A stretch of DNA of 36,626 nucleotides from a virus, in IMG/VR virus record IMGVR_UViG_3300037728_000010, positions 1-36,626 of that record; one strand, 5' to 3'. Both the position numbers and the translations under genes were made by a program. The notes below the pieces were generated by a model. That model was not told the origin of the DNA. It made no database searches and saw only the letters and a list, made by a program, of their open reading frames with translations. This document shows, in pieces, positions 5,940 through 22,219 of the stretch; the stretch's first letter is position 1; the number at the start of each line of letters is the position of its first letter.

Positions 5940-6308
5940 ATGAATAAAGATCAAATTAGAAGCTTCATTCAAGAAGAGGTTTCAAAAATTTTAAATGAAG
6001 AGACGGAGTACCAAAAATATTTCAAACAGATGATGGACGTGTTTGGAATTGATTCTCCACAAGAATTAAATGATAAAGAGAAGAAAAAGTTCTTCGACTT
6101 TGTTAGCCTAGGATGGAACGAAGACACGGATACAAAAGACCAAGAAGCTATCGAGCAAGCTAAAGACTACGTTCAAAGAAAAGATGGCTTAAACGAATCT
6201 TCAAAAAAGCTTGAATCGTTCAAACGGGCGGTTCGTCAGCTTATGGAACGGGGAGTAAGCAAAGAAAAAGCCGTTCGAGAAGTGGTGAAAAGAGCAAAAA
6301 AAAAGTAG
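5940..6308 (+). CDS. Head-internal candidate with targeting-type N-terminus, 122 aa (zero-frame product)
   Basis: Begins MNKDQIRSFIQEEVSKILNE, a member of the basic/amphipathic N-terminal motif family of this window. The I-Q-E step fits the gp21-type cleavage consensus (I/L)-x-E. The middle part (EYQKYFKQMMDVFGIDS, then KEKKKFFDFVSLGW) looks like a small helical domain I associate with T4-like marine phage proteins. The C-terminus is very basic and ends in KRAKKK on a run of nine A, directly followed by TAG. That run is a slippery site for a probable -1 frameshift into the next 61 codons (see 6305-6490). Both products may be made. Confidence 0.8.
   Translation: MNKDQIRSFIQEEVSKILNEETEYQKYFKQMMDVFGIDSPQELNDKEKKKFFDFVSLGWNEDTDTKDQEAIEQAKDYVQRKDGLNESSKKLESFKRAVRQLMERGVSKEKAVREVVKRAKKK
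6296..6308 (+). promoter_or_regulatory. Candidate -1 frameshift site (A9 then G, stop TAG)
   Basis: Nine A at 6296-6304 followed by G give the classical heptamer A AAA AAG (6299-6305), read as Lys-Lys just before the zero-frame stop TAG at 6306-6308. A -1 slip bypasses the stop and enters an open frame that ends exactly in an ATGA overlap with the next gene. A homopolymer sequencing error is the alternative explanation. Confidence 0.6.
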
Positions 6309-6490
6309 ATGAAAACGTCGGCCAAGCAGAGTATGAAAGAGCGGTTGACGCGATTTATGATGTTGCAATTTCTTCTCCTATGAATGCAGAGCAACACATA
6401 ACCGGAATTGTAAACAAAGCTATCGAGAAAATCCAGCTTCAAGGTGGGGATATAGACGGAAGAAAAATCGCTAAAAACATAAGGCCATGA
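6305..6490 (+). CDS. -1 frame C-terminal extension of the 5940 gene
   Basis: In the -1 frame the reading continues VDENVGQAEYERAVDAIYDV, then AISSPMNAEQ, GIVNKAIEKIQ and GGDIDGRKIAKNIRP to TGA at 6488-6490. The stop overlaps the ATG of the next gene as ATGA, the same spacing used between many real gene pairs here. The segment has codon use like its neighbours and ordinary protein composition. The only internal ATG would give a 36-aa peptide, so I favour a transframe product of about 183 aa over a separate gene. It is a helical, charged domain of unknown family. Confidence 0.6.
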   Translation, partial: VDENVGQAEYERAVDAIYDVAISSPMNAEQHITGIVNKAIEKIQLQGGDIDGRKIAKNIRP

Positions 6491-6849
6491 TTGAAACATT
6501 TATACGTATTGGAGAAGCTATTTTGTCTTTCTTGAAGAAATCTTGGGAGTACATAGCCCTTGGGTTGTCAATTATCTTGGGCTATCTTGTGTTTTTTGAC
6601 GACTCCGCACAAGAAAAAATCGAAAAGAGCCTCCGGAGGCAAAACAAGCTTCAAAACGAAGACCAAAAACTTCAAGAAAAAGAACGTGAAGTTGAAAAGG
6701 AGAAAGAGGGTCTTGAAAAAGACTTAAACAATCTTGAAGAAGAAGAGAAAAAGATAAGAGAAGACCTCCGGGAAGACCCCAAACCGAAAGAAAATGAAGA
6801 AAATGTAAGAGATTGGCTTCAAAACAATTATGGTGACAAAAATGATTAA
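6487..6849 (+). CDS. Membrane-anchored coiled-coil protein (inner-membrane spanin-like), 120 aa
   Basis: N-terminal amphipathic stretch MIETFIRIGEAILSFLKKSW, then one membrane helix at about residues 22-38 (EYIALGLSIILGYLVFF). Residues 45-100 form a long coiled coil full of Glu, Lys and Leu. Topology and size match an inner-membrane spanin (Rz-like) facing the periplasm. It overlaps the following exported protein gene by 8 nt (ATGATTAA), as lysis pairs often do. It is translationally coupled to the frameshift extension before it through ATGA. Lysis function is inferred from topology only. Confidence 0.6.
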   Translation: MIETFIRIGEAILSFLKKSWEYIALGLSIILGYLVFFDDSAQEKIEKSLRRQNKLQNEDQKLQEKEREVEKEKEGLEKDLNNLEEEEKKIREDLREDPKPKENEENVRDWLQNNYGDKND

Positions 6850-7267
6850 AAAGTCTGTTACGTTACTTATAGCATTTTTGCTGTTGTCCCCTACAGTTGC
6901 CTTTGGGCAATCTTCTTCGTCTTCTTCTGCGTCACAAGATAGCGTTTGTGTTCCTGTCAAGCAGCTTGAACGGGTAAGAGACGATATTCAAAAGAAACAG
7001 AAGAAGATTCAAGATCTTCAAAGGTTAAAACGAAATTTGGAGTCACAAGTCCGGACGCTTAAAGCCCTTCGGCAAAAAGATAGCCTTCTTATTGGAATCA
7101 AAGACCGGAGAATAAAAAACCGAAACGAGCTTCTTGAAGAAAAAAACAACGAAATAGAGGGCCTAAGAGAACAGCTAAATTCCGCAAACCGGAGAAAGTG
7201 GCTTTACTTTGTCGGTGGAGCGGCTGCAGTTATCGGTTCGGCATATGTCGTCGGACAAACAAATTAA
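6842..7267 (+). CDS. Exported coiled-coil protein with C-terminal TM, 141 aa
   Basis: I chose the ATG at 6842 (MIKKSVTLLIAFLLLSPTVA) because it gives a textbook signal peptide and an 8-nt overlap with the preceding gene; an in-frame ATG lies at 6830. Predicted cleavage is after TVAFG, before Gln. The mature part starts with a Ser-rich spacer and DSVCVPVKQLERVRD, continues as a coiled coil to about residue 115, and ends with a membrane helix (WLYFVGGAAAVIGSAYVVG). From memory, similar exported proteins occur near lysis genes of Bacteroidota phages and may act as unimolecular or partner spanins. There is no lipobox Cys at the cleavage site. Confidence 0.68.
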   Translation: MIKKSVTLLIAFLLLSPTVAFGQSSSSSSASQDSVCVPVKQLERVRDDIQKKQKKIQDLQRLKRNLESQVRTLKALRQKDSLLIGIKDRRIKNRNELLEEKNNEIEGLREQLNSANRRKWLYFVGGAAAVIGSAYVVGQTN

Positions 7268-7353
7268 CAACGCCAAACACCAAACGTCTACACTAGCATG
7301 GCAACATTATTTACTACATTCATTAATCTTTCATCAACTTAACAACTGATAAT

Positions 7354-7677
7354 ATGAAAATCAATAGACGAAAAATTCGCAGACTTGTAGAACGCGAGAT
7401 TCGCAGACAAACTTCTTCAAAAAGACAAATTGACGAGGCCGTAGGTGGAATGGTTGGGCTTCAACCAATTCACGACATGAGTTCTCCTTCAAGACAAGAC
7501 GACTTTACGTACAGAGGTCTTGAAGACATGAAGAGAGGCCAACTCGACATTGTTACCGAAAGCATTGACGAAACTGTTTCTCTTCTCCGGGAAGCTGCAG
7601 ACGGTTCAAACAACGACAAAATTTCAAGAATTGTCAAGCGTCTTGGAGAGATTCGAGAAGATATTGAAAATCTTTAA
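7354..7677 (+). CDS. Targeting-motif small protein, 107 aa
   Basis: N-terminus MKINRRKIRRLVEREIRR belongs to the motif family; L-V-E fits a gp21-type cleavage step. The rest is a charged helical protein without recognised domain (VTESIDETVSLLREA, ISRIVKRLGEIREDIENL), possibly another short coiled coil. It lies 18 nt before the gene that precedes the terminase. I infer a head-internal or scaffold-associated protein. Confidence 0.72.
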   Translation: MKINRRKIRRLVEREIRRQTSSKRQIDEAVGGMVGLQPIHDMSSPSRQDDFTYRGLEDMKRGQLDIVTESIDETVSLLREAADGSNNDKISRIVKRLGEIREDIENL

Positions 7678-7695
7678 ACAAACAATCGAAGTGTC

Positions 7696-7950
7696 ATGTC
7701 AAACGACTTTTTTGGAGACGTAGAAAAAGAGGCTCGCCCACAGAAGGCTAAAAATCTCCGGAAAAAACTTGACGTAAACGGTGGAGGGGTTGTCGTAAGC
7801 GGTGGCCCCTCTACGGCTTTTGACCCGGACAAAGACCTTTCAACAAAGAAAAAAAGAGCACGTCCGGATAGTCCTCTCGAAAAAGATGAAGGAGAATCTT
7901 TTTGGAATAGCACGATCCGAGAAAGTGAAAGAAAGCTTCTTCACGGGTAA
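7696..7950 (+). CDS. Small basic protein upstream of terminase, 84 aa
   Basis: MSNDFFGDVEKEARPQKAKN followed by a Gly/Val patch (VNGGGVVVSGG) and a C-terminal ESFWNSTIRESERKLLHG. It is polar and probably mostly disordered. It sits 20 nt before the large terminase, the place where a small terminase subunit might be, but I see no HTH or coiled-coil oligomerisation region typical of gp16-like proteins. Treated as hypothetical. Confidence 0.62.
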   Translation: MSNDFFGDVEKEARPQKAKNLRKKLDVNGGGVVVSGGPSTAFDPDKDLSTKKKRARPDSPLEKDEGESFWNSTIRESERKLLHG

Positions 7951-7970
7951 ACTATCAACTAAGCAGTAGC

Positions 7971-9642: not shown

Positions 9643-9852
9643 ATGAAATACCGAAAACAAAGAAACAAACTTCAAGAAAAGATCACAAAAGGCGACCTGT
9701 ATTGTGACCTAAACGACCTTCTTTCCCACATGAAAGGAGTAAGGACTTCAACTCGTCTTATTCAAAAGCTTTCAGATCGCCTTAACAAAGATCCTGCAGA
9801 GGTGGAGTTACTTTTAGATGAACTTATCGAAGAACTTATGATGGTAGTATGA
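9643..9852 (+). CDS. Small helical protein, 69 aa
   Basis: MKYRKQRNKLQEKITKGDLY with a helical, HTH-like middle (TSTRLIQKLSDRLNKDPAEV) and an acidic end (LLLDELIEELMMVV). The stop overlaps the next start as ATGA, so it is coupled to the basic motif protein that follows. No family recognised. Confidence 0.68.
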   Translation: MKYRKQRNKLQEKITKGDLYCDLNDLLSHMKGVRTSTRLIQKLSDRLNKDPAEVELLLDELIEELMMVV

Positions 9853-10115
9853 AAAAATTAACAAGGGAACGACTAAGAAAACTTATTCGAAAAGAAATTG
9901 AAGAAGCGCGGTACAAAACCGTTTATAGAAACGGGAAGAAAGTCCGTAAGCTTGACTGCCCAAAGGGTAAGAAAGCAAAAGATGGTCGGTGCGTCCGAAT
10001 GTCAAGTAAAGAAAAAAGAAGGCGTTCGAAGGCAGCCAAAAAAGCTCACCGGAAAAAAAGTAGCTACAAAAAAGGTTCTAGAAAAAGAAAGAAAACCAAA
10101 CGTAAAAAGTCATGA
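9849..10115 (+). CDS. Highly basic targeting-motif protein, 88 aa (DNA-condensing candidate)
   Basis: Starts MKKLTRERLRKLIRKEIEEA, a clear member of the N-terminal motif family. A middle segment VRKLDCPKGKKAKDGRCVRM holds two Cys, and the last 45 residues are almost only Lys, Arg, Ser and Ala (RRSKAAKKAHRKK). Such a tail should bind DNA or RNA. With the targeting helix in front, the simplest reading is an internal head protein that enters the prohead and meets packaged DNA, like T4 internal proteins. ATGA overlaps link it to both neighbours. Confidence 0.78.
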   Translation: MKKLTRERLRKLIRKEIEEARYKTVYRNGKKVRKLDCPKGKKAKDGRCVRMSSKEKRRRSKAAKKAHRKKSSYKKGSRKRKKTKRKKS

Positions 10116-10570: not shown

Positions 10571-10873
10571 ATGAACAAAAGAAAACTTAGAAGAATTATT
10601 CAAAAAGAAACAAGACGTGTAATCAAAGAACAAGAGAACCTTGAGCAGTATCCAGAACCTCTTAAACGTCTTATTACACGCGCAATCGGAGTAGAAGGGC
10701 GCGAAGTAGATCAAATTTCACAGCTTCTAGACGACACATGGGAGGTGTACTTAAAGCCGGGTGTTCGAGACTTTGAGTTAAACATCGACGACCTTTCTTA
10801 TGGAGCAAGAATGGATATTTTGAAAGTTGCAATGTATGGCAACCAGTTTTACTTTCAAGTTCGGATTGGTTAG
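10571..10873 (+). CDS. Targeting-motif small protein, 100 aa
   Basis: N-terminus MNKRKLRRIIQKETRRVIKE belongs to the motif family. The remaining part is a compact alpha/beta segment (WEVYLKPGVRDFELNIDDLS, FYFQVRIG) of unknown family. An A-rich leader precedes the ATG, with no Shine-Dalgarno sequence. A weak TATA motif (GATATATAAACACGAG) lies at 10510. Confidence 0.75.
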   Translation: MNKRKLRRIIQKETRRVIKEQENLEQYPEPLKRLITRAIGVEGREVDQISQLLDDTWEVYLKPGVRDFELNIDDLSYGARMDILKVAMYGNQFYFQVRIG

Positions 10874-10916: not shown

Positions 10917-11876
10917 ATGATTACAAAAAAACAGATCGCCCACATATTGACCGAAGACGAAGACGAAGAGCTTACAATGGACGATCTTCCCGACTATGAT
11001 ACTCCCGAGCTTCCGGACCAAGAAGATGCAGAGTATGATGGTCGGGAAGTTACGCTTTACGACCCGTTTCGGATTGAAGACGATGAAAAGAAGTTTGCCG
11101 TTTACGTCCGGAACCCCGATTCTGGAAACGTGAACAAAGTTAAGTTCGGGTCTGACACGATGGAAATCAAAAGAGACGATCCGGCACGGCTTAAATCTTT
11201 CCGGTCTAGATTTAGCTGTGGGGAACTTGATCAATCCGATAAGCACACCGCAAAGTTTTGGAGTTGTGTGTTTTGGAGAAAAGACAAGTCCGTGTCCGAC
11301 CTTTTAAGTGAAGGCGAAGAATGGAAAATTGAAGAATACGTTCGCTCCGCTACTAGAAATCGCATTTTAGAAAAAGCAAGTGAAGAGTATTGCAAAAACA
11401 CCGATCCGGAAGACATGGGATTTACCCAAAGAGCAAGTTGCAAGGCACAAGGATACATCGAACGATCAGACGGAGAAAAAAGAAAATCCGATAAATATAA
11501 AGAGTCAACTAATATGAGAATCAATTCAAAAGAAGGAAAACAGCAAATTTTCGTTGAAGAACTTCGACGCCTACAAGAGCAAGAAAACCGGGAAGAGTCT
11601 ACGGTTGGGGACGTTATTGACGACCCGGATATGATTTTGGTTCACCCGAGAAGCCCACAGTACAGCGAACTTGTTCGCCAGCTTCGAGACGAACTTGGAA
11701 CGAGTTCTTTTAACCCGTCTTCATATGAATTTTACATCGTCAACCAAGCAGAATACGATTCTCAGACTGGACACGGAGAGGTTTACGGTGGTTACGTCGG
11801 AAGAAACTACGTGGCAGATTGGGGAAAAGGATACGACCAAATTACCGACGAAAACAAGATTGTAAGGCTTGTGTAG
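10917..11876 (+). CDS. Modular head-region protein, 319 aa
   Basis: Three parts can be seen. Residues 1-57 are a short motif-like start (MITKKQIAHILTEDEDEE) and an acidic linker. Residues 59-122 (FAVYVRNPDSGNVNKVKFGS ... MEIKRDDPARLKSFRSRF ... FWSCVFW) match, from memory, a small Cys-containing module found in many T4-like marine phages. Residues 157-182 (EYCKNTDPEDMGFTQRASCK) are a second small Cys module. From Met200 a separate segment begins (MRINSKEGKQQIFVEELRRL), which could even be an internal start, ending in an alpha/beta domain. Probably a structural or assembly protein; the fusion of modules is notable. Confidence 0.75.
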   Translation: MITKKQIAHILTEDEDEELTMDDLPDYDTPELPDQEDAEYDGREVTLYDPFRIEDDEKKFAVYVRNPDSGNVNKVKFGSDTMEIKRDDPARLKSFRSRFSCGELDQSDKHTAKFWSCVFWRKDKSVSDLLSEGEEWKIEEYVRSATRNRILEKASEEYCKNTDPEDMGFTQRASCKAQGYIERSDGEKRKSDKYKESTNMRINSKEGKQQIFVEELRRLQEQENREESTVGDVIDDPDMILVHPRSPQYSELVRQLRDELGTSSFNPSSYEFYIVNQAEYDSQTGHGEVYGGYVGRNYVADWGKGYDQITDENKIVRLV

Positions 11877-11942: not shown

Positions 11943-13847
11943 ATGGCAGAAAAGTCAAGAGGAAGTATTAGAAATGCCCTCTCACGTCTCTTTTCCAGCG
12001 AGGTGATTGTCCGCTCTTCGGATGGAGAGGACGTGACAACGGCAGACTTACGTAGTAGCCAATCTATTTCACAAGACCTTGCGGACGGGCGTTTCAAAAA
12101 GCTTTATGGGTCCGGGCAAAGCCATTACTCTTCAAGCGGATACTCGTCTTCACAGGCTCTTCATGCAAACAGGTTTGAGCTTTTTCAAACCTATGAAGAT
12201 ATGGACCAAGACCCGATTATTGCATCTGCTCTTGATATTTACGCAAACGAAGTTGCAACTAAAGACGCATATGGACAGATTTTGGATGTAAAGTGTGAAA
12301 ATGGGGAAATCAAGTCTGTTCTTGAAAATTTAGTTTTCAATATTCTGGATGTGAATTTTAACGCCCGGTGGTGGGCACGCTCAATTGCAAAGTATGGGGA
12401 CTTGTTTCTTCACATGACGATCAACGAAGACGTTGGAGTGACAAAAGTTACCCCACTTTCCCCGTATGAAATTGTAAGACAAGAAGATACCCACGGAGAC
12501 GAGATTAAATTTGTCTATCAAGGGAATGCCCACGGGTCCGCATACACAAGCAGCACGCAAGGGCAAGTTGCTTTTGAAGAATGGGAAGTTGCACACTTTC
12601 GATTCATAAATGACGGGAACTTTTTTCCGTACGGGAAGAGCATCATTGAAAATGGCCGAAAGATTTGGCAACAGCTTTCTTTGATGGAAGAGGCTATGTT
12701 GATTCACCGGATCATGAGGGCACCGGAGAAGCGGGTTTTCAAAATTGACGTTGGGAACATCGAACCTGACGCAATTGAAAGCTATATGAACGACGTAATG
12801 AACGACATTCAGCAAACCCCGCTTGTTGACCCGGAAACGGGACAATACAACTTGGAATTCAACATGCAGAATATGCTTGAAGACTTTTTTCTTCCGGTTC
12901 GGGGAAACCAATCCGGAACGGAAATTCAAAGTCTTCAGGGCCTTCAATATCAAGCGATGGAAGACGTTGAGTATCTTCGGAAGAAGCTTATGTCGGCTTT
13001 AAAGATTCCAAATGCTTTCTTAGGATACGAACAAGAAATTCAAGGAAAAGCCACTCTTGCCCAAGAGTCCATTAAGTTTTCTAACGCCGTAGAAAACCTT
13101 CAACGGTCTATTGCAAGAGAGTTGAAAAAAATCGCCGTTGTTCACCTGTATGTCCGAGGGTACAGGGGAAGTGATCTTATTGACTTTAACTTCTCGTTTA
13201 CAAACCCAAGCATTGTTGCAGAACAAGAACGGATTGAGTTTCTTAGCCGGAAGGTTAGTCTTGCGCGTGACATGCGAGAAATGCCTTTCCTATCGGATGA
13301 AAAGATTGCAAAGGAAGTGTTTAACATGTCCGAAGACGAAATCGATGAAGAATACAAAGAGAAGGTTCGGGACTGGAAGAGAAACTTCCGAAAGGATCAA
13401 ATCGAACGTGAAGGCAACGATCCCGTAAAGACGGGAATGAGTTACGGGACGCCAAGTGATTTGGCAATGAGTGGAAGCTCACAAATCCAGAACTTCGACA
13501 TTGACAACACCGAAGACGAACTAGAAGACTTAGATAAAGATGAAGGTGGAAATGATCTTGGAGGCGGAGACGATGATGTTTCAGGAATGAAAGACCTTTC
13601 AAATCAACTTAGAAACAAGTCTTCGGATATAACTCACAACTACCAAGGAGGAAGCCCAATGGCTCTTTCTTCAAGTTTAGAGAAACATTTCAACAGAAAA
13701 AGACGGCTCATTCATGAAACATACACCGAAGACGAAGACAAAGAAGACGAAGGAAACGAAGATCATATGAAAGATACATATATGGACGAGTCAGCCCTTG
13801 AAGAAAAAAATGATAGACTCAAAGAATTGCTAGATGAAACCTTGTAA
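11943..13847 (+). CDS. 20: Portal vertex protein (gp20-like), 634 aa
   Basis: Forms the dodecameric DNA channel at the capsid vertex. Typical T4 gp20 features: FELFQTYEDMDQDPIIASAL at residues 79-98, DIYANE, KVTPLSPYEIVRQ, the central PEKRVFKIDVGN with a MLEDFFLPVRG stretch, then LRKKLMSALKIPNAFLGYEQ and the long helical region ARELKKIAVVHLYVRGY. The C-terminal about 130 residues are acidic and low complexity (DEDKEDEGNEDH), as in other gp20 relatives. It lies downstream of the terminase, separated by small genes instead of tail sheath and tube genes as in T4. Confidence 0.96.
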   Translation: MAEKSRGSIRNALSRLFSSEVIVRSSDGEDVTTADLRSSQSISQDLADGRFKKLYGSGQSHYSSSGYSSSQALHANRFELFQTYEDMDQDPIIASALDIYANEVATKDAYGQILDVKCENGEIKSVLENLVFNILDVNFNARWWARSIAKYGDLFLHMTINEDVGVTKVTPLSPYEIVRQEDTHGDEIKFVYQGNAHGSAYTSSTQGQVAFEEWEVAHFRFINDGNFFPYGKSIIENGRKIWQQLSLMEEAMLIHRIMRAPEKRVFKIDVGNIEPDAIESYMNDVMNDIQQTPLVDPETGQYNLEFNMQNMLEDFFLPVRGNQSGTEIQSLQGLQYQAMEDVEYLRKKLMSALKIPNAFLGYEQEIQGKATLAQESIKFSNAVENLQRSIARELKKIAVVHLYVRGYRGSDLIDFNFSFTNPSIVAEQERIEFLSRKVSLARDMREMPFLSDEKIAKEVFNMSEDEIDEEYKEKVRDWKRNFRKDQIEREGNDPVKTGMSYGTPSDLAMSGSSQIQNFDIDNTEDELEDLDKDEGGNDLGGGDDDVSGMKDLSNQLRNKSSDITHNYQGGSPMALSSSLEKHFNRKRRLIHETYTEDEDKEDEGNEDHMKDTYMDESALEEKNDRLKELLDETL

Positions 13848-13877
13848 CACTCTTTTACAAAGGAGCACGTAACTTTT

Positions 13878-13894
13878 CTATATATAAAGTGAAG
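13878..13894 (+). promoter_or_regulatory. Late-promoter-like motif
   Basis: CTATATATAAAGTGAAG lies 22 nt before the next start codon, after the portal stop. It has the full core plus GTGAA extension and is one of the four best copies. Confidence 0.6.
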
Positions 13895-13915
13895 AAGATT
13901 TAACAAAAACCTAAG

Positions 13916-14806
13916 ATGAAAAAGATAAAACACTCGAAATACAAAAATACTGGCTTGATTTTTGAAATGCTGGTGCGTCAAATTACCGTTGACGCCCTAA
14001 ATGGAGAAACAAAAAGCGAGGCGGCTCGAATTATCCGCGAATACTACAAAGATACCGAGCTTGCCAAAGAGTATTCTTTGTACAACGTTTTAATGAGTGA
14101 AGATTTCTCCGACCCAAGCAAAGCAAAAGAGCTTATTGATCGAGTTGTTGAAGCCCGTAAGAAGCTTGACGACCAGAAGCTTTATAATCAAAGATACGAC
14201 TTGATTGGAGAGATCAAAGAGCATTACCCACTTGAAGAGTTTTTCAAGTCAAGAGTTGACAACTACAAAGAGTATGCGAGTGTTTACAAAATCTTTGAAG
14301 CGGAAAAAGACGACAAAGAAATATACAACCCTGCAGATGTTGTTCGATCTGAAGACACGCTTGTCGAGCACATTACAAGTGATACGTCCGAGCCAACCAA
14401 AGAAGAGAAGTTAAGAGAGGCCCGGTCAAAAGAGATTGAAGAGTATAAAAACCAAAGTAAAGACCTTCGCCTTTATGCACAAAAGCTTATGATCGAGCGG
14501 TTTAATGACCGCTATAACGGCTTAAATGGCAAGCAAAAGAAACTTCTTCGCAAGTACATCAACAACATTTCAAATACGAACAACCTCCGGGAATATGTGG
14601 ACTCTGAAGCAGAAGAGTTGAAAGAAACCCTTTCTTCTCTTCAAAGTGAAATTGAAGACACAGTTACAAAAACGAAGGTTAAAGAAGCTTCCGAGCTTAT
14701 CGGTAACGTGAAAAATGGCCAGCACGTTAGCGAAGATCAAGTGACGAAACTTCTTATGTATTACCAGCTTCAAGAAAAAATTGAAAACCAGCTTCAAAGC
14801 CAATGA
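13916..14806 (+). CDS. Conserved helical head-region protein, 296 aa
   Basis: Starts MKKIKHSKYKNTGLIFEMLV followed by RQITVDALNG, a beginning I recall from proteins next to portal genes of marine T4-like phages. The whole protein is charged and helical, with coiled-coil character in the last third (EELKETLSSLQSEIED). No enzymatic motif. Position between portal and protease suggests a scaffold- or core-associated protein comparable in place, not proven in homology, to T4 gp67/gp68. The stop overlaps the next start as ATGA. Confidence 0.8.
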   Translation: MKKIKHSKYKNTGLIFEMLVRQITVDALNGETKSEAARIIREYYKDTELAKEYSLYNVLMSEDFSDPSKAKELIDRVVEARKKLDDQKLYNQRYDLIGEIKEHYPLEEFFKSRVDNYKEYASVYKIFEAEKDDKEIYNPADVVRSEDTLVEHITSDTSEPTKEEKLREARSKEIEEYKNQSKDLRLYAQKLMIERFNDRYNGLNGKQKKLLRKYINNISNTNNLREYVDSEAEELKETLSSLQSEIEDTVTKTKVKEASELIGNVKNGQHVSEDQVTKLLMYYQLQEKIENQLQSQ

Positions 14807-15174
14807 GAAAAAAAATTAACGAAGACTGCGGTTGCAAGGGTTCCTCTCTTAAATACCCGAAAGGCAAGCTAAGAGAGTACATTAAAACAATTATTGTTGA
14901 CTCTGACAGAGAGGAAAACGAAGAAACGACAGACGAGGCCACGACCACGTTGAACGTTCCGGGATATGATACCCCGTATGCGTTTTCTGGGGACTCCGAA
15001 GAAGATGAAGAAAAAAGAAAGAAAAAGCTAAAAAAGATTAACAAGCAATACGGATATACGCTTGTTCAAGACGTTACAAGCCCGGAGGCTATTCAAGACT
15101 TTCTTGCGTTTTTTGGCCCACTTGCAAAAAAAGACGAGCGCATTCGAAGAGAGGTCAAAAAACTCATTACATAA
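14803..15174 (+). CDS. Small conserved head-region protein, 123 aa
   Basis: MRKKINEDCGCKGSS opens with a CxC pair; KLREYIKTIIVD recalls the targeting helix but is placed at residue 23. The TTTLNVPGYDTPYAFSGD motif at about residues 47-64 matches, from memory, a TTxLxxPGYxTPxAF pattern in several marine phage head-region proteins. The rest is charged and helical (KRKKKLKKINKQYGY). ATGA overlap with the preceding gene. Function unknown. Confidence 0.75.
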   Translation: MRKKINEDCGCKGSSLKYPKGKLREYIKTIIVDSDREENEETTDEATTTLNVPGYDTPYAFSGDSEEDEEKRKKKLKKINKQYGYTLVQDVTSPEAIQDFLAFFGPLAKKDERIRREVKKLIT

Positions 15175-15236
15175 TAAATTCATTACTCAATAAGTTTTAA
15201 ACACAAACACACACATAAAACTATTCAAACGTTAAA

Positions 15237-15794
15237 ATGAGAAAACGACTAAGACAAATTATAAACGAAGAAGTAAAAAAGCAAAAGGCCATTCGCGGTA
15301 TTAGAAAGATGGTCCGTCAAGTGGTTAGAGAAGAGAAAAATAAGAAAATGAAAAAGGTGTATAACACCAAGATTGAAAACCCAAAAACGGGAAAAGAAAT
15401 CAAGCTAAAAACCGCTCTAAGTTATGGAAGTGGACACCCTGCCTTCAAGAAAGCTAAAAAAATAGAGAAGAAAGCAAAAGAGAAGTTCGGCGGTGGAGGC
15501 GACGACTCTAGCGGCGAAACCGAAAAGAAAACAAAAGATATAGGAAAAGAGCTTGAAGACCTTGGGGTTGCAGATAAAGACCTTAGCGGAAACACCGCTG
15601 AAGACTTTAGGAAGGCTTTTGACGACTATGAAACCGATGAGCTTGAAGACGTTGCTGACGATCTTGAGGGGCTTCAAGGAAGGCTTGAAGACGGCGAAAT
15701 CGGAGAAGACGAAATAAAAGATAAGCTTGGAGCAGACGCAGAACCGGGTAAGATTGCAAAGAACATCCGAAACTTTATTGACGTTGAGCGATAA
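15237..15794 (+). CDS. Targeting-motif protein with two tandem helices, 185 aa
   Basis: The N-terminus carries the motif twice: MRKRLRQIINEEVKKQK and IRKMVRQVVREEKNK. A module follows at about residues 41-75 (IENPKTGKEIKLKTALSYGS, then GHPAFKKAKK), which I recognise as a small domain shared by several marine phage proteins. The last 90 residues are very acidic (ETDELEDVADDLEGLQGRLE), giving a basic head and acidic tail, as expected for core/scaffold-type proteins. I infer a prohead internal protein. Confidence 0.78.
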   Translation: MRKRLRQIINEEVKKQKAIRGIRKMVRQVVREEKNKKMKKVYNTKIENPKTGKEIKLKTALSYGSGHPAFKKAKKIEKKAKEKFGGGGDDSSGETEKKTKDIGKELEDLGVADKDLSGNTAEDFRKAFDDYETDELEDVADDLEGLQGRLEDGEIGEDEIKDKLGADAEPGKIAKNIRNFIDVER

Positions 15795-16141: not shown

Positions 16142-16318
16142 ATGAAAGATAAAGAGGGTACGAAGTTGCGGCGCATAATTCAAGACGAGGTGCGTCGCAC
16201 CCTTATCAAAGAAGAATTTTCCAAAGACGAAGAAGAAGAGATCCGGCGAATCATTCGTTCGGAAATTTCAGAAGTCTTTTACGACCTGTTTAGGCGCAGG
16301 TCTTTTTGGATTGACTAA
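16142..16318 (+). CDS. Mini-protein made of two targeting-type helices, 58 aa
   Basis: ATG at 16142, TAA at 16316-16318. MKDKEGTKLRRIIQDEVRRT is one copy of the motif and EEEIRRIIRSEISEVFYDLF a second, joined by an acidic linker, ending RRRSFWID. There is almost no sequence outside the motif, so the protein may act as a core filler or as a competitor/regulator of targeting. The reading frame is supported by strong similarity of both helices to those of eleven other genes in this window. Confidence 0.75.
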   Translation: MKDKEGTKLRRIIQDEVRRTLIKEEFSKDEEEEIRRIIRSEISEVFYDLFRRRSFWID

Positions 16319-16336: not shown

Positions 16337-16636
16337 ATGTCTCCACAAAAACTTAAACGTATTATTCGAGAAGAAGTTTCAAATCTTATCTCCGAATCCC
16401 ACCTGTCTCCCGGAGAGGTTGTTGGCAAAGGTGTAGGTCCAATTGAAATCCGGGAAGAGATCGGAAGTCTTCGAACAATGGGTGGAGACATTGAAATTTA
16501 TGCCGTTGAAGACCAGCGGACAATGGACGTTGGAGTATACATCGTTGAGTACGGAGAAACAAACGGTATTATCATTGGAGCAAACGACGCAGACAAAGTT
16601 TCTCGAATGATTTCAAGTGTTACGGAACTGTTTTAG
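16337..16636 (+). CDS. Targeting-motif small protein, 99 aa
   Basis: Starts MSPQKLKRIIREEVSNLISE, a clean copy of the motif with I-R-E as possible cleavage step. The mature part is alpha/beta (IGSLRTMGGDIEIYAVED, VGVYIVEYGETNGIIIGAND) and seems a small folded domain of unknown family. It directly precedes the prohead protease gene by 30 nt, which suits a protease substrate. Confidence 0.78.
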   Translation: MSPQKLKRIIREEVSNLISESHLSPGEVVGKGVGPIEIREEIGSLRTMGGDIEIYAVEDQRTMDVGVYIVEYGETNGIIIGANDADKVSRMISSVTELF

Positions 16637-16666: not shown

Positions 16667-17365
16667 ATGGCAGAAGTAGAAACAAAACAACAGCTTGATA
16701 CAAAGCCGGAAAAAGAAAAAGCGGACATTGTTGATGTTCGGCCTTTCAGGTACGAAAAGAAAAAGACTCGACTTGACGAGGCTGCGGGGGACTCTGACGA
16801 GCCCCTTGTTGTAAAAGGTATTCTTCAACGGGCCAATGCCCAAAACCAGAACGGTCGGATATATCCTAAAAAAGTGCTTAAACGGGAAGTTGAAGATTAT
16901 AAGAAGCTCATTAATGAACGCAGAGCATTAGGCGAACTTGACCACCCGGACAGTTCCGTTGTGAACCTAAAAAACGTTTCACACATGGTTACGGATGTGT
17001 GGTGGAAAGGAAACGATCTTATGGGGGAAGTAAAAGTTCTTGACACGCCCAACGGTCGAATTCTAAAAAGTCTTCTTAACGACAACGTGAATATCGGAAT
17101 TTCAAGCCGTGGAATGGGAAGCGTGAAAGAACAAACAGACGGAACGCTTCGAGTTGGAAATGACTTTGATCTTATCGCTTGGGACTTTGTTTCAAACCCT
17201 TCAACACACGGCGCGTTCATGGACGAAGTAAACGAAGGGGTCGTGCAAGAGGGTCTTATTACCGAAAGCCGGGAGGCAAAGAAAGAAATGGATAGGTGGA
17301 AAGACGTAAACAGTTTTGCAAGCGAGCTTATTGAAGAAATGTCTGAAGAATACGAAATTGAATAA
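16667..17365 (+). CDS. 21: Prohead core protease (gp21-like), 232 aa
   Basis: Serine protease that matures the head by cutting scaffold, internal proteins and the capsid protein N-terminus. Recognisable blocks are LVVKGILQRANAQNQNGRIY (48-67), the catalytic His in RALGELDHPD (H93), the nucleophile region NIGISSRGMGSV (S146/S147) and the FDLIAWDFVSNPST block that should carry the acidic residue. Length and order agree with T4 gp21 (peptidase U9/S78 group). The residues before 48 form an unusually long charged N-terminal extension, which may be self-cleaved. The next gene overlaps by 1 nt (TAATG). Confidence 0.95.
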   Translation: MAEVETKQQLDTKPEKEKADIVDVRPFRYEKKKTRLDEAAGDSDEPLVVKGILQRANAQNQNGRIYPKKVLKREVEDYKKLINERRALGELDHPDSSVVNLKNVSHMVTDVWWKGNDLMGEVKVLDTPNGRILKSLLNDNVNIGISSRGMGSVKEQTDGTLRVGNDFDLIAWDFVSNPSTHGAFMDEVNEGVVQEGLITESREAKKEMDRWKDVNSFASELIEEMSEEYEIE

Positions 17366-17766
17366 TGATTCGGCTCAACAGTTTACTTAAAGAGGCGTTT
17401 TCCGAACTTGAAAAAGAGCTTCGAACGCTTGGGGAAAACCTAGGTGAAGAAATGGACCTATATCGTTCAGGGAGGGCCGGAACGTATTTCACCTATAACG
17501 GAACGTATGAAGGGTTTGACGTTACCGTAGAATACTTTGGCCGATCTAGAAGCGTTCTTCAAATTTCTTTTTCTCTTCAAAACCCCGACCTTCGGGGCAA
17601 GCAAATTCTTCGGTTCAAAACAACCACGTCAAGTTTTCCAACCGTTTCAATTGAAGAAATTGTTAACGACGTTTCCGACGCGGCAGGAGAGTTTGACGTT
17701 GAATCCGTAGAGCAGTTCATCGAAGAAATGAAGTCAACAGCCGAAGGAACTTTAGAAAACCAGTAA
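17365..17766 (+). CDS. Small head-region protein, 133 aa
   Basis: Starts MIRLNSLLKEAFSELEKELR, a hydrophobic/basic N-terminal helix of the T4-like targeting type (compare T4 MKTYQEFIAEA) rather than the Arg-rich motif. The middle is beta-rich (GTYEGFDVTVEYFGRSRSVL) and the end helical and acidic. Coupled to the protease gene by TAATG. Likely a substrate or partner in prohead assembly; family unknown. Confidence 0.72.
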   Translation: MIRLNSLLKEAFSELEKELRTLGENLGEEMDLYRSGRAGTYFTYNGTYEGFDVTVEYFGRSRSVLQISFSLQNPDLRGKQILRFKTTTSSFPTVSIEEIVNDVSDAAGEFDVESVEQFIEEMKSTAEGTLENQ

Positions 17767-17772: not shown

Positions 17773-18744
17773 ATGAACAGTAAAGATTTCATTAGAAGTT
17801 TGATTCACGAGGCGTATTATGCAAATCGTGGACGACCTGTGCGTTCTCCGTTTAGCCACTACAGAGAGTATAACCCCGGCAGGCCGTATACGGACACCTT
17901 CCAAGAAATTACCGACTTGTACAACACGACGTATCGGATGCTTCACCAAGAAGATGCATTCGAAGAAGTTCACTACAGCGAGCCGATGAACGTTTTAGTG
18001 GCCGTTCCTCTAGAGGAAAGCGAGTTTGAAGGTCCATATACTATCTTTGGGCTAAAGGCCGCTAGAGGTTATCACAAGGACTACAGGTTCATTGATAAAG
18101 GTATTGAAGGGGCCGGATCTTACTACATCAACGAAGAAGAGGTAGACATGCTTCTTCAAAACCCAAAAAAGGCAATCCGAGAGCTTAACCGGGAATACTT
18201 TGGTAGGATTGGGATGCACCCAAAATCAAGAGAACGGCTTGATGAATCTGTTGTAAACGAAAAATCAAAGTCTGAAACCCAACAGAGGCTTTTCGGAATG
18301 GTTTACGCTTACAAGCAAGGAGAACTTGACTTGGGCGAGCTTGACGACGACTTGGCAGAAAAGATCAAGTCTATCGCTGACGACATTTCGATGGAAGATG
18401 CAAAAGATTTTGCCGAAACTGGTCACGACGACATTCCCCCGGAAGTAAAAGAAGAGGCTTTTCGAAGAAAAGCAAGAGCGTATATTAAAGAACATTTGTT
18501 AGCGGAAGAGAATCCGTACATAGGATGGGAAAACCTTCCCCCCGGATGGGACGAAGAAAGCCTTCAAAGCTTTGCTAGAAGCCTTACAGGAAAAACAAAA
18601 GACGACACAGAAGGGTTTTTCTCAAATTGTATGGACAAAATGGAAGACGAGCTTGACGACCCGGAAGCATTTTGCGCTTCGCTAAAAGACGAGTATTTGG
18701 GCCGTGAAGATTGGAGAACAGGCCCAAACGGGGAGAATGATTAA
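17773..18744 (+). CDS. Modular head-region protein with DUF3008-like domain, 323 aa
   Basis: N-terminus MNSKDFIRSLIHEAYYANRG resembles a T4-type targeting peptide. Residues 40-140 are an uncharacterised alpha/beta region. Residues 164-226 match the DUF3008 pattern: KSETQQRLFGMVYAYKQGEL, then IADDISMEDAKDFAETGHDD. Residues 266-316 form a third module (SLTGKTKDDTEGFFSNCMDK, DDPEAFCASLKDEYLG) with two Cys, known to me from unrelated small proteins. DUF3008 is usually a free protein of about 60 aa; here it is embedded. Probably carried in the head; function unknown. Confidence 0.78.
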   Translation: MNSKDFIRSLIHEAYYANRGRPVRSPFSHYREYNPGRPYTDTFQEITDLYNTTYRMLHQEDAFEEVHYSEPMNVLVAVPLEESEFEGPYTIFGLKAARGYHKDYRFIDKGIEGAGSYYINEEEVDMLLQNPKKAIRELNREYFGRIGMHPKSRERLDESVVNEKSKSETQQRLFGMVYAYKQGELDLGELDDDLAEKIKSIADDISMEDAKDFAETGHDDIPPEVKEEAFRRKARAYIKEHLLAEENPYIGWENLPPGWDEESLQSFARSLTGKTKDDTEGFFSNCMDKMEDELDDPEAFCASLKDEYLGREDWRTGPNGEND

Positions 18745-18769: not shown

Positions 18770-19099
18770 ATGAAAATTAGTAACCAAAAACTTCAGAAAA
18801 TAGTTCGTGAAGAAACAAAAAAGGTTTTGTCTGAACAAGAAACAGTGTCCGGGCCTAGTGTTCCCCGGAAGATAGACTCTGCTCTTCAAACTATGGGTTT
18901 AGGTGATACCTCTCGCTACAAAGTTTATAAGGAAGATATGCGAATGGGCGAACCTATTTATATAGTAGAGATTAACCCTTCGACTCTTCCCGGTGGTCTA
19001 ACCTTGAATCCGAATATGCTTTCTTCCATTGCTAAAAGAAGTGACTTAAATAAAGTTAGATTTGACGGTCAAGTTGCTGAATTATGGTTTGATGGATAA
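18770..19099 (+). CDS. Targeting-motif small protein, 109 aa
   Basis: The start at 18770 gives MKISNQKLQKIVREETKKVL, a standard motif copy; the in-frame ATGs at 18704 and 18737 overlap the preceding gene and would bury the motif. The rest is a small alpha/beta domain (RYKVYKEDMRMGEPIYIVEI, VRFDGQVAELWFDG). The following gene overlaps by 1 nt (TAATG). Family unknown. Confidence 0.76.
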   Translation: MKISNQKLQKIVREETKKVLSEQETVSGPSVPRKIDSALQTMGLGDTSRYKVYKEDMRMGEPIYIVEINPSTLPGGLTLNPNMLSSIAKRSDLNKVRFDGQVAELWFDG

Positions 19100-19356
19100 T
19101 GATTACTTTTAAGGATATCTTACGCGAAAAGCTTTTTTCTGACGTTGTGAGGCTTGGGCTTACTGCTCCAAAAGAAAAAGACTATGAAATCGAGCACATA
19201 ACAAGAGGGTCTAATTTAACCCACGCTTTTGAGAAGATGAAGATGTGGGCTAAAAACAACGGGTACGAAATCGAAAGGCCACAGGCCGGGGAAGAAAGCA
19301 TATACGACTACAGATTTGTCAAGAATGGCAACAAGGAAAGAGTGGTAGATATATAA
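19099..19356 (+). CDS. Small protein with T4-type N-terminal helix, 85 aa
   Basis: MITFKDILREKLFSDVVRLG resembles a head-targeting peptide (L-R-E step). The remainder (HITRGSNLTHAFEKMKMWAK, DYRFVKNGNKERVVDI) is a compact alpha/beta segment without recognised family. Overlaps the previous gene by 1 nt. Confidence 0.68.
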   Translation: MITFKDILREKLFSDVVRLGLTAPKEKDYEIEHITRGSNLTHAFEKMKMWAKNNGYEIERPQAGEESIYDYRFVKNGNKERVVDI

Positions 19357-19379: not shown

Positions 19380-19796
19380 ATGAAATTTGATAAGCTTGTT
19401 TCACTTTTGGTCGAAGAACAGAAAAAAGAGTCTTCAAACGAAAACTGGTTTGAATCGGAAGGCAATCTTTCCGAAGACCAAAAGAAAATCCTCTTTCGTG
19501 AGCTAAAAAATTTTCACGAAAACGACAAGTATATATATAATGAAGGAAATTTAAACAAGCTTTCAAAGAAACTTCATGCGGTTGCTAAGTACGCCAAGCG
19601 GTATTTAAACGAAAAGAACACGCCGTTTGACAACGTAACGGTTAACCGCAATATGAGAGAACTCAAAAAATATTTAAACAAGTTTGAAAAAACGGCAGAA
19701 AAGACGCAAAAGAACCGAGAACGTCTTTCTGCCCTATATGAAGATATTGCAATGATTCTTGACCGCTACTTCGACGTGTCAAGCGGCCAAGAATAA
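19380..19796 (+). CDS. Helical head-region protein, 138 aa
   Basis: MKFDKLVSLLVEEQKKESSN begins with a short hydrophobic helix and V-E-E. The rest is entirely helical and Lys/Asn/Glu-rich (KKLHAVAKYAKRYLNEKN, LKKYLNKFEKTAEKTQKN), ending FDVSSGQE. No family recognised. Neighbours and N-terminus suggest another head-internal protein. Confidence 0.68.
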   Translation: MKFDKLVSLLVEEQKKESSNENWFESEGNLSEDQKKILFRELKNFHENDKYIYNEGNLNKLSKKLHAVAKYAKRYLNEKNTPFDNVTVNRNMRELKKYLNKFEKTAEKTQKNRERLSALYEDIAMILDRYFDVSSGQE

Positions 19797-20272: not shown

Positions 20273-20339
20273 TCAGTTACCGCTTGTTTTCAATAAAGGT
20301 TATGTTAAATATTCATGTTTTGAAAAACAAAGTAACTGA
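20273..20339 (+). promoter_or_regulatory. Long hairpin ending 2 nt before a start codon
   Basis: TCAGTTAC (20273-20280) pairs perfectly with GTAACTGA (20332-20339). Inside, CTTGTTTTCAA pairs with TTGAAAAACAAAG with two single-A bulges, giving about 19 pairs around a 26-nt loop. The hairpin ends right at the ATG of the holin-like gene (20342). It could hold back translation or mark an mRNA end. Confidence 0.5.
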
Positions 20340-20341
20340 CA

Positions 20342-20692
20342 ATGACAACCGACAAAGCAAATACACAAGCCCCAATGCCCCCCAAACCTCCAGAGCAAGT
20401 TGGGGACGGGGAAGATAAAGAGAAGAGTGAAAATCCCCCAAAAAGCAAAAAGAAACTTGACGTTGGGCTTCCTCAAGACCTAAAAGAACGGTTTACGTCA
20501 AGGAAGTTTCTTGCGGGGGTTGCTCTTCACGTGATTAGCATTGCTCTTCTTCTTACAGGATTTATTGACCCGGTGAACTGGACACAGTTTAACCTTGCCG
20601 TTTATGGGGTCTATTCTGTTTCTAACGCTGCAAGCAAGTTTGCAGGTGGAGACAAAAGAGATCCGCAAGTAGGTGGAATCATGTCCAAGTAA
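20342..20692 (+). CDS. Holin-like membrane protein, 116 aa
   Basis: A 60-residue polar, Pro/Lys-rich N-terminal arm (PMPPKPPEQVGDGEDKEKSE) precedes two membrane helices: about residues 58-76 (KFLAGVALHVISIALLLTGF) and 82-100 (TQFNLAVYGVYSVSNAAS). The short turn between them (IDPVNW) and the charged end fit small phage holins with two helices. A holin here, far from an endolysin, is a topology-based guess; another membrane role is possible. A hairpin lies directly upstream of its start. Confidence 0.62.
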   Translation: MTTDKANTQAPMPPKPPEQVGDGEDKEKSENPPKSKKKLDVGLPQDLKERFTSRKFLAGVALHVISIALLLTGFIDPVNWTQFNLAVYGVYSVSNAASKFAGGDKRDPQVGGIMSK

Positions 20693-20750
20693 ACAAACAA
20701 CTACAAACGATTACATTTAACGTTAAGTTAATAGGAAGAATTAAAACACA

Positions 20751-21041
20751 ATGAGACTTTCAAGACGTAAACTGCGCCGCATGATCCGTGAAGAACTTAA
20801 AGAAGCTAAAGGGCTTTTTAACAAGCCTTCAAATGTTCTTAGACGGAGGCTTCCTTCATATGACTCAATCTTTGACATGGGAAAAAGATTGGAAATTGAA
20901 GACGGCCCGGATCTTGCCACCGTCACTTACAATTATGGATCTAGAACATACGTCGTAAGTGGAGACGGAATGCGTAGGGGACTCGCCCAAGAAGTATTTC
21001 GAGTCCTTGATGGTGCAGGATTTAATGTAACTCGCAAGTAA
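20751..21041 (+). CDS. Targeting-motif small protein, 96 aa
   Basis: MRLSRRKLRRMIREELKEAK is a canonical motif copy, nearly identical to the next gene's start. The mature part (ATVTYNYGSRTYVVSGDG, FRVLDGAGFNVTRK) is a small beta/alpha fold. Unknown family. Preceded by an AT-rich leader without Shine-Dalgarno. Confidence 0.78.
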   Translation: MRLSRRKLRRMIREELKEAKGLFNKPSNVLRRRLPSYDSIFDMGKRLEIEDGPDLATVTYNYGSRTYVVSGDGMRRGLAQEVFRVLDGAGFNVTRK

Positions 21042-21085
21042 AGCTATACACGCATATACATTTACTAAAATAAAAAATCAGTATA

Positions 21086-21646
21086 ATGAGACTATCAAAA
21101 CGCAAACTTAAACGCATCATTCGTGAGGAAGTTCGAAAGACCCTGAACAGTAATTCAAGAAGATCAAGACGAAGAGTTACTGAAAGTGTTTCAAATCTTT
21201 ATGAACTAGACCCATATATGGGAAATGATCTTTGGGAGACACTAAGAAATCAAGATTTGACAGATATTCCAGAAAGGGCACTAGTTGAAAACATTATTAA
21301 TCCAGTTGAAGACAGGATCAGAGAGAGCTTCAAAAGAAGAAGAGATATTGAAGATACCGACAGAGGCCAAGTTGTTAGCACAAAACTAGCTGCTGGAGTT
21401 TATGAAGACGGAATGAGTGTTATTGGTTTTGTTGACCCGCAATCTTCAGGCATAGCCGGATTTGAAGGCCACCCAAGAGAAGGAAACTGTGTTGCGATGT
21501 ATGTTATTCCTAAAGAACAGTCCGGAACAAGACTTTTTAGAGGAAACGTAAGACGCAGCAGGATGAAAGATAGCAAAAAATGGGGACGAACAATAAGGAG
21601 TGCTGTTCCCGATGTTGTTAGCGAAACAAGAGAGAAAACACAATAA
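21086..21646 (+). CDS. Targeting-motif protein, 186 aa
   Basis: MRLSKRKLKRIIREEVRKTL is followed by a Ser/Arg patch (SNSRRSRRRVTESVSNL). The body (STKLAAGVYEDGMSVIGFVD, EGNCVAMYVIPKEQSGTRLF) looks like a folded alpha/beta domain, and the end is basic. The pair with the preceding gene suggests duplication of the N-terminal peptide only, since the bodies differ. Family unknown. Confidence 0.76.
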   Translation: MRLSKRKLKRIIREEVRKTLNSNSRRSRRRVTESVSNLYELDPYMGNDLWETLRNQDLTDIPERALVENIINPVEDRIRESFKRRRDIEDTDRGQVVSTKLAAGVYEDGMSVIGFVDPQSSGIAGFEGHPREGNCVAMYVIPKEQSGTRLFRGNVRRSRMKDSKKWGRTIRSAVPDVVSETREKTQ

Positions 21647-21677
21647 AATACTAATCAATCAAAACACACAGAGTTAT

Positions 21678-21884
21678 ATGCAAAGAGCAAGAGTAGGAGT
21701 TGAAGTTCGAGACAACGACGTTGAAAAGGCGCTTTCAGTTTTCAACCGGAGAGTTAAAAAGTCCGGTATTCTATACGAGCACATTCAAAACCAGCAGTTT
21801 ACAAAACCTTCAAAAGAAAGAAGGGATGCTCGAAAACAAAAAGAGCGCCGGATTAAACGCAAAAATAGAAGTAACAGGTATTAA
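21678..21884 (+). CDS. rpsU: Ribosomal protein bS21 homologue, 68 aa
   Basis: Starting at ATG 21678 the protein reads MQRARVGVEVRDNDVEKALS, then FNRRVKKSGILYEHIQNQQF, TKPSKERRDARKQKERRIKR and a basic tail. The order (beta start, VxxALxxFxRxxxKxGIL, FxKPSxERR, basic helix) is that of bacterial bS21, and the length fits (about 65-75 aa). bS21 sits on the 30S platform near the anti-Shine-Dalgarno end of 16S rRNA. Phage-encoded bS21 is known in several marine phages and huge phages. It lies among head genes, 6 nt before the next motif gene. The earlier in-frame start at 21600 overlaps the preceding gene and is not used. Confidence 0.88.
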   Translation: MQRARVGVEVRDNDVEKALSVFNRRVKKSGILYEHIQNQQFTKPSKERRDARKQKERRIKRKNRSNRY

Positions 21885-21889
21885 ACAAT

Positions 21890-22219
21890 ATGAAGATTTC
21901 ACAGCGAAAACTAAAGCGGACTATCCGTGAAGAGGTTCAACACCTCACCGAAGAAGCGGTGATGAAATATACGTCAGCGGTTGACTTTAAACGAGCAAGT
22001 AAAGCGTACCGAGAAGCCGACGTTGAAGTTAAAAAAGACGAAGACTACCCCGATACTACATGGATTGTGAAAGGCCCAAGAAGAGAAGTAGAGCGTTGGA
22101 TTGATATTACGTCGAAAGGAGAGGGTAGGCACATCCGAAAAGCTATGTACGACGCTATTGAGGGCGGCAGCAAAGCCGCAAAGATGTGGAGCAAAGCACG
22201 CCGCTTTTTCTCCGGATAA
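21890..22219 (+). CDS. Targeting-motif small protein, 109 aa
   Basis: MKISQRKLKRTIREEVQHLT is a canonical motif copy. The rest (VDFKRASKAYREADVEVKKD, YPDTTWIVKGPRREVERWID, GGSKAAKMWSKARRFFSG) forms a small alpha/beta domain with a basic end. Family unknown. It is the last small gene before the scaffold-capsid unit and only 6 nt after bS21. Confidence 0.77.
   Translation: MKISQRKLKRTIREEVQHLTEEAVMKYTSAVDFKRASKAYREADVEVKKDEDYPDTTWIVKGPRREVERWIDITSKGEGRHIRKAMYDAIEGGSKAAKMWSKARRFFSG

Follow-up and report, generated by a model that had tools for sequence, protein, structure and literature searches.

A shared N-terminal helix in a T4-type phage as a likely capsid-targeting propeptide on many cargo proteins

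Results

A common helix on unrelated proteins

We analysed a 36,626-nucleotide stretch of viral DNA (the window; IMG/VR record IMGVR_UViG_3300037728_000010), which is by its gene content a fragment of a T4-type phage. Eleven of its genes start with variants of one helix, here called the type-A tag. The tags, their frequent L-x-E ends, their modular swapping between proteins and an S77 prohead protease can all be seen in the sequence. We consider it likely that the type-A helix is a capsid-targeting propeptide, and that it belongs to a divergent, expanded system loading ~30 cargo proteins. Packaging of these proteins into the head is the likely outcome. A second tag (type B) in the same phage probably represents the T4-type capsid-targeting sequence (CTS).

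A 15-column type-A profile was built from the 11 clear N-termini of the window, which scored 14.2-35.6 bits when left out. Twelve genes had been named in an initial sequence-only reading; the profile recovered 11 of them and dropped the gene at 10917. Over its full length the window matches a longer IMG/VR record (G001, 223,357 bases) at 100% identity on the reverse strand, and positions marked rc refer to the reverse complement of G001 (rc = window position + 173,684). Scanning of this whole record, as that reading had proposed, gave a wider membership: 14/410 open reading frames (ORFs) had an N-terminus at ≥15 bits, namely the 11 profile members and three others (rc89420, rc156247 and rc218305). 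At the same threshold, internal windows gave 0 matches and shuffled N-termini 0.08 expected matches. A 14-sequence profile with a generic background passed 16/410 ORFs, of which the two extra ones (rc85874 and rc117672) look like charged false positives.

A further record (G033, 34,845 bases) overlaps the end of G001 by 13,007 bases at 100% identity and adds 21.8 kb. It supplied ten more type-A genes (21-38 bits), which together with the 14 of G001 gives ~24 type-A genes in this phage. The suggested size of the T4-like cargo set was therefore exceeded, even with 10917 removed. BLAST among the window type-A bodies agreed overall with the view that they are unrelated. The pair 16337 and 18770 departs from it (34% over 70 amino acids (aa), E = 0.002), and one other match covered 11 residues (E = 0.73).

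The tagged genes of the window and related ORFs are as follows, with profile scores in bits and a slash at the putative cut. LR756508.1, an uncultured phage of 484 kb, has a 66%-identical capsid protein.

5940..6308, +, type A, MNKDQIRSFIQEEVSKILNE/; body resembling the last ~40 aa of head-region proteins (~210 aa) in relatives; profile 14.2
7354..7677, +, type A, MKINRRKIRRLVEREIRRQ; no L-x-E at tag end; profile 20.8
9849..10115, +, type A, MKKLTRERLRKLIRKEIEEA; no L-x-E at tag end; very basic body, K+R 51%; profile 16.0
10571..10873, +, type A, MNKRKLRRIIQKETRRVIKE/; profile 31.6
10917..11876, +, not type A (MITKKQIAHILTE); profile -3.4
14803..15174, +, ORF without a scored tag; LR756508.1 homologue (153398) type-A tagged; by homology
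15237..15794, +, type A, MRKRLRQIINEEVKKQ; no L-x-E at tag end; profile 22.3
16142..16318, +, type A, MKDKEGTKLRRIIQDEVRRTLIKE/; profile 28.6
16337..16636, +, type A, MSPQKLKRIIREEVSNLISE/; body weakly similar to that of 18770; profile 28.3
17365..17766, +, type B (T4-CTS-like), MIRLNSLLKE/A; B score 26.1, in the B training set
17773..18744, +, ORF, MNSKDFIRSLIHE/A; central region weakly DUF3008; by homology
18770..19099, +, type A, MKISNQKLQKIVREETKKVLSE/; inside an ORF listed from GTG 18704; profile 24.9
19099..19356, +, type B, MITFKDILRE/K; in the B training set
19380..19796, +, ORF, MKFDKLVSLLVEE; body resembling the N-terminal portion of the relatives' ~210-aa proteins; by homology
20751..21041, +, type A, MRLSRRKLRRMIREELKEA; no L-x-E at tag end; profile 27.0
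21086..21646, +, type A, MRLSKRKLKRIIREEVRKTL; no L-x-E at tag end; profile 35.6
21890..22219, +, type A, MKISQRKLKRTIREEVQHLTE/; profile 23.2

In LR756508.1 the internal domain of 10917 sits directly behind a type-A tag (position 401717). Homologues of 14803 in other relatives have N-termini like ..LIQ[LQ]ELDE/AT.

The tag end resembles a prohead protease site

Type-A tags were ~20-22 residues long, with a core L-[RK]-x-[IV]-[IV]-[RK]-E-E-[IVL] often followed by V/L-L-x-E. With the 14-sequence profile at 14 bits, we found 106 distinct type-A proteins among 4,800 ORFs from 143 sources. In the window clade, columns 2-10 were strongly conserved (L, R/K, x, I/V, I/V, R/K, E, E, I/V/L), V/L occupied columns 13-14 and E column 16, and information fell to 0.19-0.33 bits from column 19. 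A hydrophobic-x-E step with the hydrophobic residue at columns 12-15 was present in 36/54 clade tags, compared to 6.4 after shuffling of the tag tail, and in 28/52 tags from other sources, compared to 5.8. Because columns 13-14 lie inside the profile, this enrichment is partly selection and only E16 is independent, which weakens the case for a cut site. E stood at column 16 in 48% of the clade and 46% of the others (column 15, 24% and 10%; column 17, 17% and 13%). Six further records, searched with a window one column wider, gave 37/51 compared to 7.0 shuffled; one of these 51 tags (G033 7955, which is rc218305) equals a profile sequence. An unspecific hydrophobic-hydrophobic-x-E pattern occurred in 47/410 N-termini (25.0 ± 4.7 shuffled) and is too weak alone.

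A cut after (I/L)-x-E had been predicted within the helix, where I-[RQN]-E occurs by eye in 6/11 window tags. The kind of step stands, and its place is better put at the end of the conserved segment (~residue 20-22), where a second L-x-E is the stronger candidate and is present by eye in 6/11 window tags. The main cut probably does not fall at the I-R-E within the helix.

The genes expected to act with such tags lie in the same window:

16667..17365, +, prohead protease, peptidase S77 (T4 gp21 family); RLDE/A before and LITE/S after the catalytic domain; by Pfam and PDB
22418..23833, +, acidic ORF at the expected scaffold site; no useful family match; by position only
23911..25626, +, major capsid protein (gp23 family); putative maturation site L60-V-N-E63/A64; by PHROG and alignment

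The protease was supported by Pfam (1.5e-32) and by the T4 gp21 structure (PDB 5jbl, 7e-20). Among 101 capsid ORFs, which include identical duplicates, residues 60-64 had L in 97, [IVL] in 100, E in 100 and A/S in 89, giving a putative site pattern L-[IVL]-x-E/[AS]. This position is close to the 65-residue propeptide given for T4 gp23 (PMC5694885, in the part available). In the proteases that could be parsed by landmarks (26 of 71 distinct), [LIVM]xE/[ASG] preceded the catalytic domain in 26/26 and also followed it in 25. The LR756508.1 protease (L163, 156480, 574 aa) carries an in-frame insert of ~340 residues between GELDHPD and SSVVNLKN; it starts with C, ends with TGN and is intein-like, with motifs judged by eye.

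A second tag matches the T4 capsid-targeting sequence

The type-B tag has ten residues, M-I-[RK]-F-x-D-L-L-x-E and close variants. We picked seven by eye (rc24008, rc151029, rc151529, rc157659, rc219160, window 17365 and window 19099); a profile trained on them gives scores that are not independent for these sequences. The protein at rc92494 has a type-B-like tag one residue shorter. Type B has F/L4, L7, L8 and E10 (e.g. MIRFNDLLRE). According to the accessible part of one account, the T4 CTS is 10-19 aa long, the first ten residues of IPIII are enough, with roles in targeting for residues 4 and 7 and in processing for 8 and 10 (PMC9026906). In a three-member family resembling ADP-ribosyltransferases (ARTs), M1, L8 and E10 were invariant and most of the tag varied. 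Type A is laid out differently from the T4 CTS and, judged by sequence, is a different signal. It would fit a CTS role by its position, its end, its modular swapping and the cognate protease, and differs in wording, length and the residue after the cut (P1').

Five related ~150-aa proteins are encoded in G001 (rc24008, 151029, 151529, 157659 and 217762); four are type-B tagged, and three lie at rc151-158 kb, close to baseplate genes. LR756508.1 has eighteen type-B-tagged ORFs in several clusters at ~177-337 kb (L164-L172), mostly ~250 aa. They align as one set with R-G...RxPxDT...S.FA...YG motifs; 12/18 match phrog_11975 and 5 match phrog_12810. We considered them as ADP-ribosyltransferases (13 have R-G as in LYRG), and a PDB profile search gave no support. 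In this comparison 133 type-B-like ORFs were matched (131 with reference and scanned), and the results cover the first 25 of 43 families.

Tags are exchanged between bodies

The two tags occur on homologous bodies. The body behind the type-B tag of window 19099 is 45% identical to the one behind the type-A tag of LR756508.1 189655; for rc156247 (type A) and LR756508.1 121184 (MEFSDIVNYLIEQ) the bodies are 58% identical. The ORF at 17773 (MNSKDFIRSLIHEA) has type-A-tagged homologues in two relatives, G011 (L225) and LR756508.1. In G011 (L225:6103), a protein with a single tag combines the bodies of 21086 (84%, N-terminal part) and 20751 (82%, C-terminal part), which are each tagged in the window. 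Likewise, many relatives have ~210-aa proteins to which 19380 and 5940 correspond in separate segments. These swaps and fission or fusion events are evolutionary evidence for tag exchange as read from the sequences.

The zeta-toxin-like kinase rc92494 has homologues in 206 phage records. The Straboviridae orthologues have T4-like N-termini and start with MKSFKQFTESTLTE/A (Matisse), MKSFKDFTSLDE/A (GAP161), MNFKEFCQLDE/A (S13), MKMKFSEFVQLEE/K (CC2) and MKKFSEFIKLEE/K (65.2); these are the five starts compared, the coding-sequence start of PTm5 being outside the fetched piece. In PTm5 (L250, a Tenacibaculum phage) the zeta-like kinase lies within a longer frame, whose pre-P-loop residues VSGN/SGKGF are intein-like by eye. 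Together, the (I/L/V)xE end, the type-B swaps, the split gene, the S77 protease and these T4-family orthologues support the proposal of a T4-like capsid-targeting peptide on many cargo proteins. Because the tag resembles and is swapped with the T4 capsid-packing signal, tagged proteins are probably head-loaded.

We weighed two explanations that involve no packaging. Type-A tags were basic (net +1 to +7 in 10/11 window tags) and amphipathic (moment 0.55 vs 0.29 shuffled), and in a low-confidence predicted structure of 21086 a helix spanned residues 5-22 (mean pLDDT 39.5, two-sequence alignment). A nucleic-acid-binding or dimerisation element would share the charge and amphipathicity. We find such a role improbable, however, given the strict N-terminal position, the frequent L-x-E end, the type-B tag on homologous bodies and a separate tag on each half of the split gene. 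The helix could also have spread by recent duplication or recombination of 5' gene ends, without functional selection. Identical codons in the tags were slightly above the codon-use expectation, as this would require (0.454 vs 0.388 and 0.444 vs 0.386 in two phages). Yet synonymous sites were near saturation in both phages, which indicates selection on the peptide, and distant large phages show the same pattern in other letters (MKITKRQLRRIIKEEK). A mosaic artefact is thus hardly credible.

Type-A arrays recur in relatives while the bodies turn over

Relatives were drawn from 80 of 599 matches, and loci that duplicate the window or complete records were excluded from the profile scan and body comparison. 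LR756508.1 had 30 type-A ORFs at 14 bits. At 15 bits, 18/29 fell in a 46-kb head region holding 65/750 ORFs (hypergeometric P = 1.2e-13), a region chosen after the hits were seen. The G001 counterpart was 11/16 in 35/410 ORFs, where the 11 had trained the profile. Eight type-A ORFs were present in a 15.8-kb record that has a 69%-identical capsid protein. A DNA pattern search found 16 loci, with arrays of 10/22 (L257), 7/21 (L259), 5/10 (L258) and 4/10 (L264) ORFs; a stricter DNA pattern search gave no matches. We checked 8 of these 16 records for an S77 protease: all four above 100 kb were positive, and the four without it were fragments of 6-83 kb.

The clustering of tags round the protease, scaffold and capsid genes in this phage and LR756508.1 would also suit components of the prohead core or scaffold, such as T4 gp67/gp68, that assist assembly, are cut up or persist as structural proteins, and are not effectors, and the 9849 body weakly matches a head scaffolding family (phrog_3503, 4.7e-5). 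Core components should be judged against body turnover, however: a blastp search at 1e-3 against the other ORFs in the comparison left 7/11 window type-A bodies without a match, and likewise 18/30 in LR756508.1, three of which later got relatives in G030. Some cargo is also enzyme-like (zeta-like kinases, a HiPIP-like protein and possibly an ADP-ribosyltransferase). We regard a core or scaffold role as unlikely, though it is the most serious of the alternatives.

Observations that weigh against a capsid-targeting role

Several observations count against the type-A helix as a capsid-targeting propeptide. The L-x-E step is missing in 27-46% of type-A tags (in the window, from 7354, 9849, 15237, 20751 and 21086). 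The residue after E in type A is A/S in 9/64 and mostly E, D, G, Q or K, compared to A/S in 43/148 type-B-pattern ORFs. This departs from the A/S found at the capsid-protein and protease sites; P1' bears on processing and does not define targeting. The type-B regular expression is noisy (148/4778 ORFs vs 38.8 shuffled), and type B was chosen by eye. At 15 bits the T4-type relatives RM378, immuto and Mel-JY01 gave no type-A match, with one in Mel-JY01 at 14. The zeta-like kinase homologue of LR756508.1 had no ATG-started tag in the stretch inspected.

Gene position counts against it as well. All tagged genes had been placed in the head module, and this holds within the window. Elsewhere in the phage many type-A genes lie among tail and baseplate genes: rc89420, rc156247 and rc218305 are outside the module, rc156247 adjoins a baseplate wedge gene, and the ten G033 genes fall in the stretch from tail sheath to tape measure, where nine occupy the interval bounded by the tail-tube and baseplate-hub genes. 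In G032 (284 kb), 16 type-A genes lie 80-200 kb away from the protease, so a head-module position is not general. The G032 and G033 positions rule out a restriction of the tags to head-module genes. The tail neighbours would be expected if the tag directed proteins to the tail or baseplate (e.g. the tube lumen). We give this destination little weight, since a prohead address is indicated both by the S77-type cut signature and by the equivalence of the tag to T4-like capsid tags.

Predicted functions of the cargo

Most tagged bodies had no family assignment, and searches of Pfam and PHROGs added little on the window cargo. By profile, rc92494 is a putative zeta-toxin-like or P-loop kinase (Pfam Zeta_toxin, 29.7 bits; cut-off 22.3), and LR756508.1 has a second zeta-like kinase above the profile cut-off (330232). 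The type-A protein rc156247 is HiPIP-like (Pfam HIPIP, 25.8 bits; cut-off 22) and is predicted to bind an iron-sulfur cluster.

The type-B protein rc219160 is possibly ART/KptA-like. It matched Tox-ART-HYD1 weakly (20.5 bits, under the cut-off of 25), its homologue matched PTS_2-RNA weakly (E = 0.016), and its PDB profile matches were RNA 2'-phosphotransferase chains only (best E = 0.09). Its predicted structure was too poor to judge the fold (mean pLDDT 34.4, two-sequence alignment). T4 Alt is described, in the available parts of two articles, as a head-packaged ADP-ribosyltransferase (PMC9026906, PMC9503650), and such a candidate would fit that precedent. A type-A Lar-like zinc protein of LR756508.1 (219298) also scored weakly (Pfam 17 bits, under the cut-off of 28.6); one member of the set matched a Lar PHROG (2.7e-4).

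Other genes of the phage

From sequence and place, the large terminase is putatively the window ORF at 7971 and the portal that at 11943. The head module adjoins a fusion of ParB-like and nucleotidyltransferase-like domains (2436-4361), and nucleotidyltransferase genes are annotated at similar places in immuto and Mel-JY01. Nearby are an ORF that is cupin-like by eye (5438-5860), with weak matches only to a PHROG of unknown function, and a small cysteine-rich ORF, DUF1289-like by eye (2198-2353, -). A GIY-YIG homing endonuclease lies directly behind the capsid gene (25689-26522, -; PHROG 8.7e-30), and a second ORF has endonuclease/HTH-repeat matches (32303-33403, +). A proteasome-like protein in this phage matches the peptidase HslV family (27528-28049, -; phrog_1040, 1.1e-8). 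Two consecutive tail-sheath genes occur at 13023-15485 of G033 (L300) and rc220844 (PHROG 1e-66 and 1.8e-14).

We also assessed the T4 late promoter (TATAAATA). It was found upstream of 1/23 tagged and 3/387 untagged genes in G001, and of 0/32 tagged and 6/718 untagged genes in LR756508.1. At these counts it is of no use as a late-expression marker for tagged genes.

Discussion

In the model that we infer for the type-A capsid-targeting propeptide, many small proteins would be made with a type-A or type-B tag, and the tag would bind the prohead core during head assembly. The S77 protease would then cut after the terminal (I/L/V)-x-E, the freed bodies would remain in the head, and some would probably be injected along with the DNA. 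Injection and an effector role of the cargo are suggested by analogy with T4. More tentatively, and with somewhat less than even confidence, type A may be a second, independently worded capsid address code in large T4-type phages, by which 30 or more proteins are delivered as a pre-made effector set. Such a set could include kinases, a redox protein and possibly ADP-ribosyltransferases and anti-restriction-like zinc proteins.

If the propeptide role is true, the tag singles out, in each phage, tens of proteins that are packaged and perhaps injected, in genomes whose genes of this kind are almost all uncharacterised. Counter-defence and takeover proteins of uncultured large phages could then be found by a simple rule on sequence, and foreign proteins could be put into phage heads with a new packaging signal. 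If type A is a second address code, reading the tags would directly list the injected proteins of uncultured phages.

We searched the literature and did not find a report of the type-A tag, which is not proof of absence. Among known systems, the P1 protein DarB has an N-terminal signal within 30 residues that sends a reporter into the head; for the Dar N-termini a consensus was not found, unlike the tags here (PMC9024508, in the part available). Head-packaged ADP-ribosyltransferases and polyvalent effectors also show effector-like domains in a virion or late-gene context. In the available part of their description they are recognised by domain, fusion (MuF, portal) and gene context, and not by a shared cleavable tag (PMC9503650).

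The giant phage SPN3US, like this phage, has many cleaved head proteins, some of them ejected. It has two short propeptides, of 20 and 24 residues, and a pair of paralogues whose first 15 residues are identical. Unlike here, most of its propeptides have 111-254 residues, with nine substrates; in the parts of its descriptions available, a short tag common to unrelated bodies was not met (PMC10052503, PMC5694885).

The T4 CTS of IPI, IPII, IPIII and the Alt propeptide is, as here, a short N-terminal propeptide on unrelated bodies with an (I/L)xE end and a T4-type protease in the same genome. The type-B tag agrees with it at positions 4, 7, 8 and 10, whereas the type-A tag is about twice as long and has a different amphipathic sequence. 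T4 blocks three different host restriction enzymes, one with each of Ip1, Ip2 and Ip3, and at least ten internal proteins (Ips) are reported in related phages (PMC12373910, in the part available). T4 has three Ips and Alt; this one phage has ~24 type-A and at least seven type-B genes.

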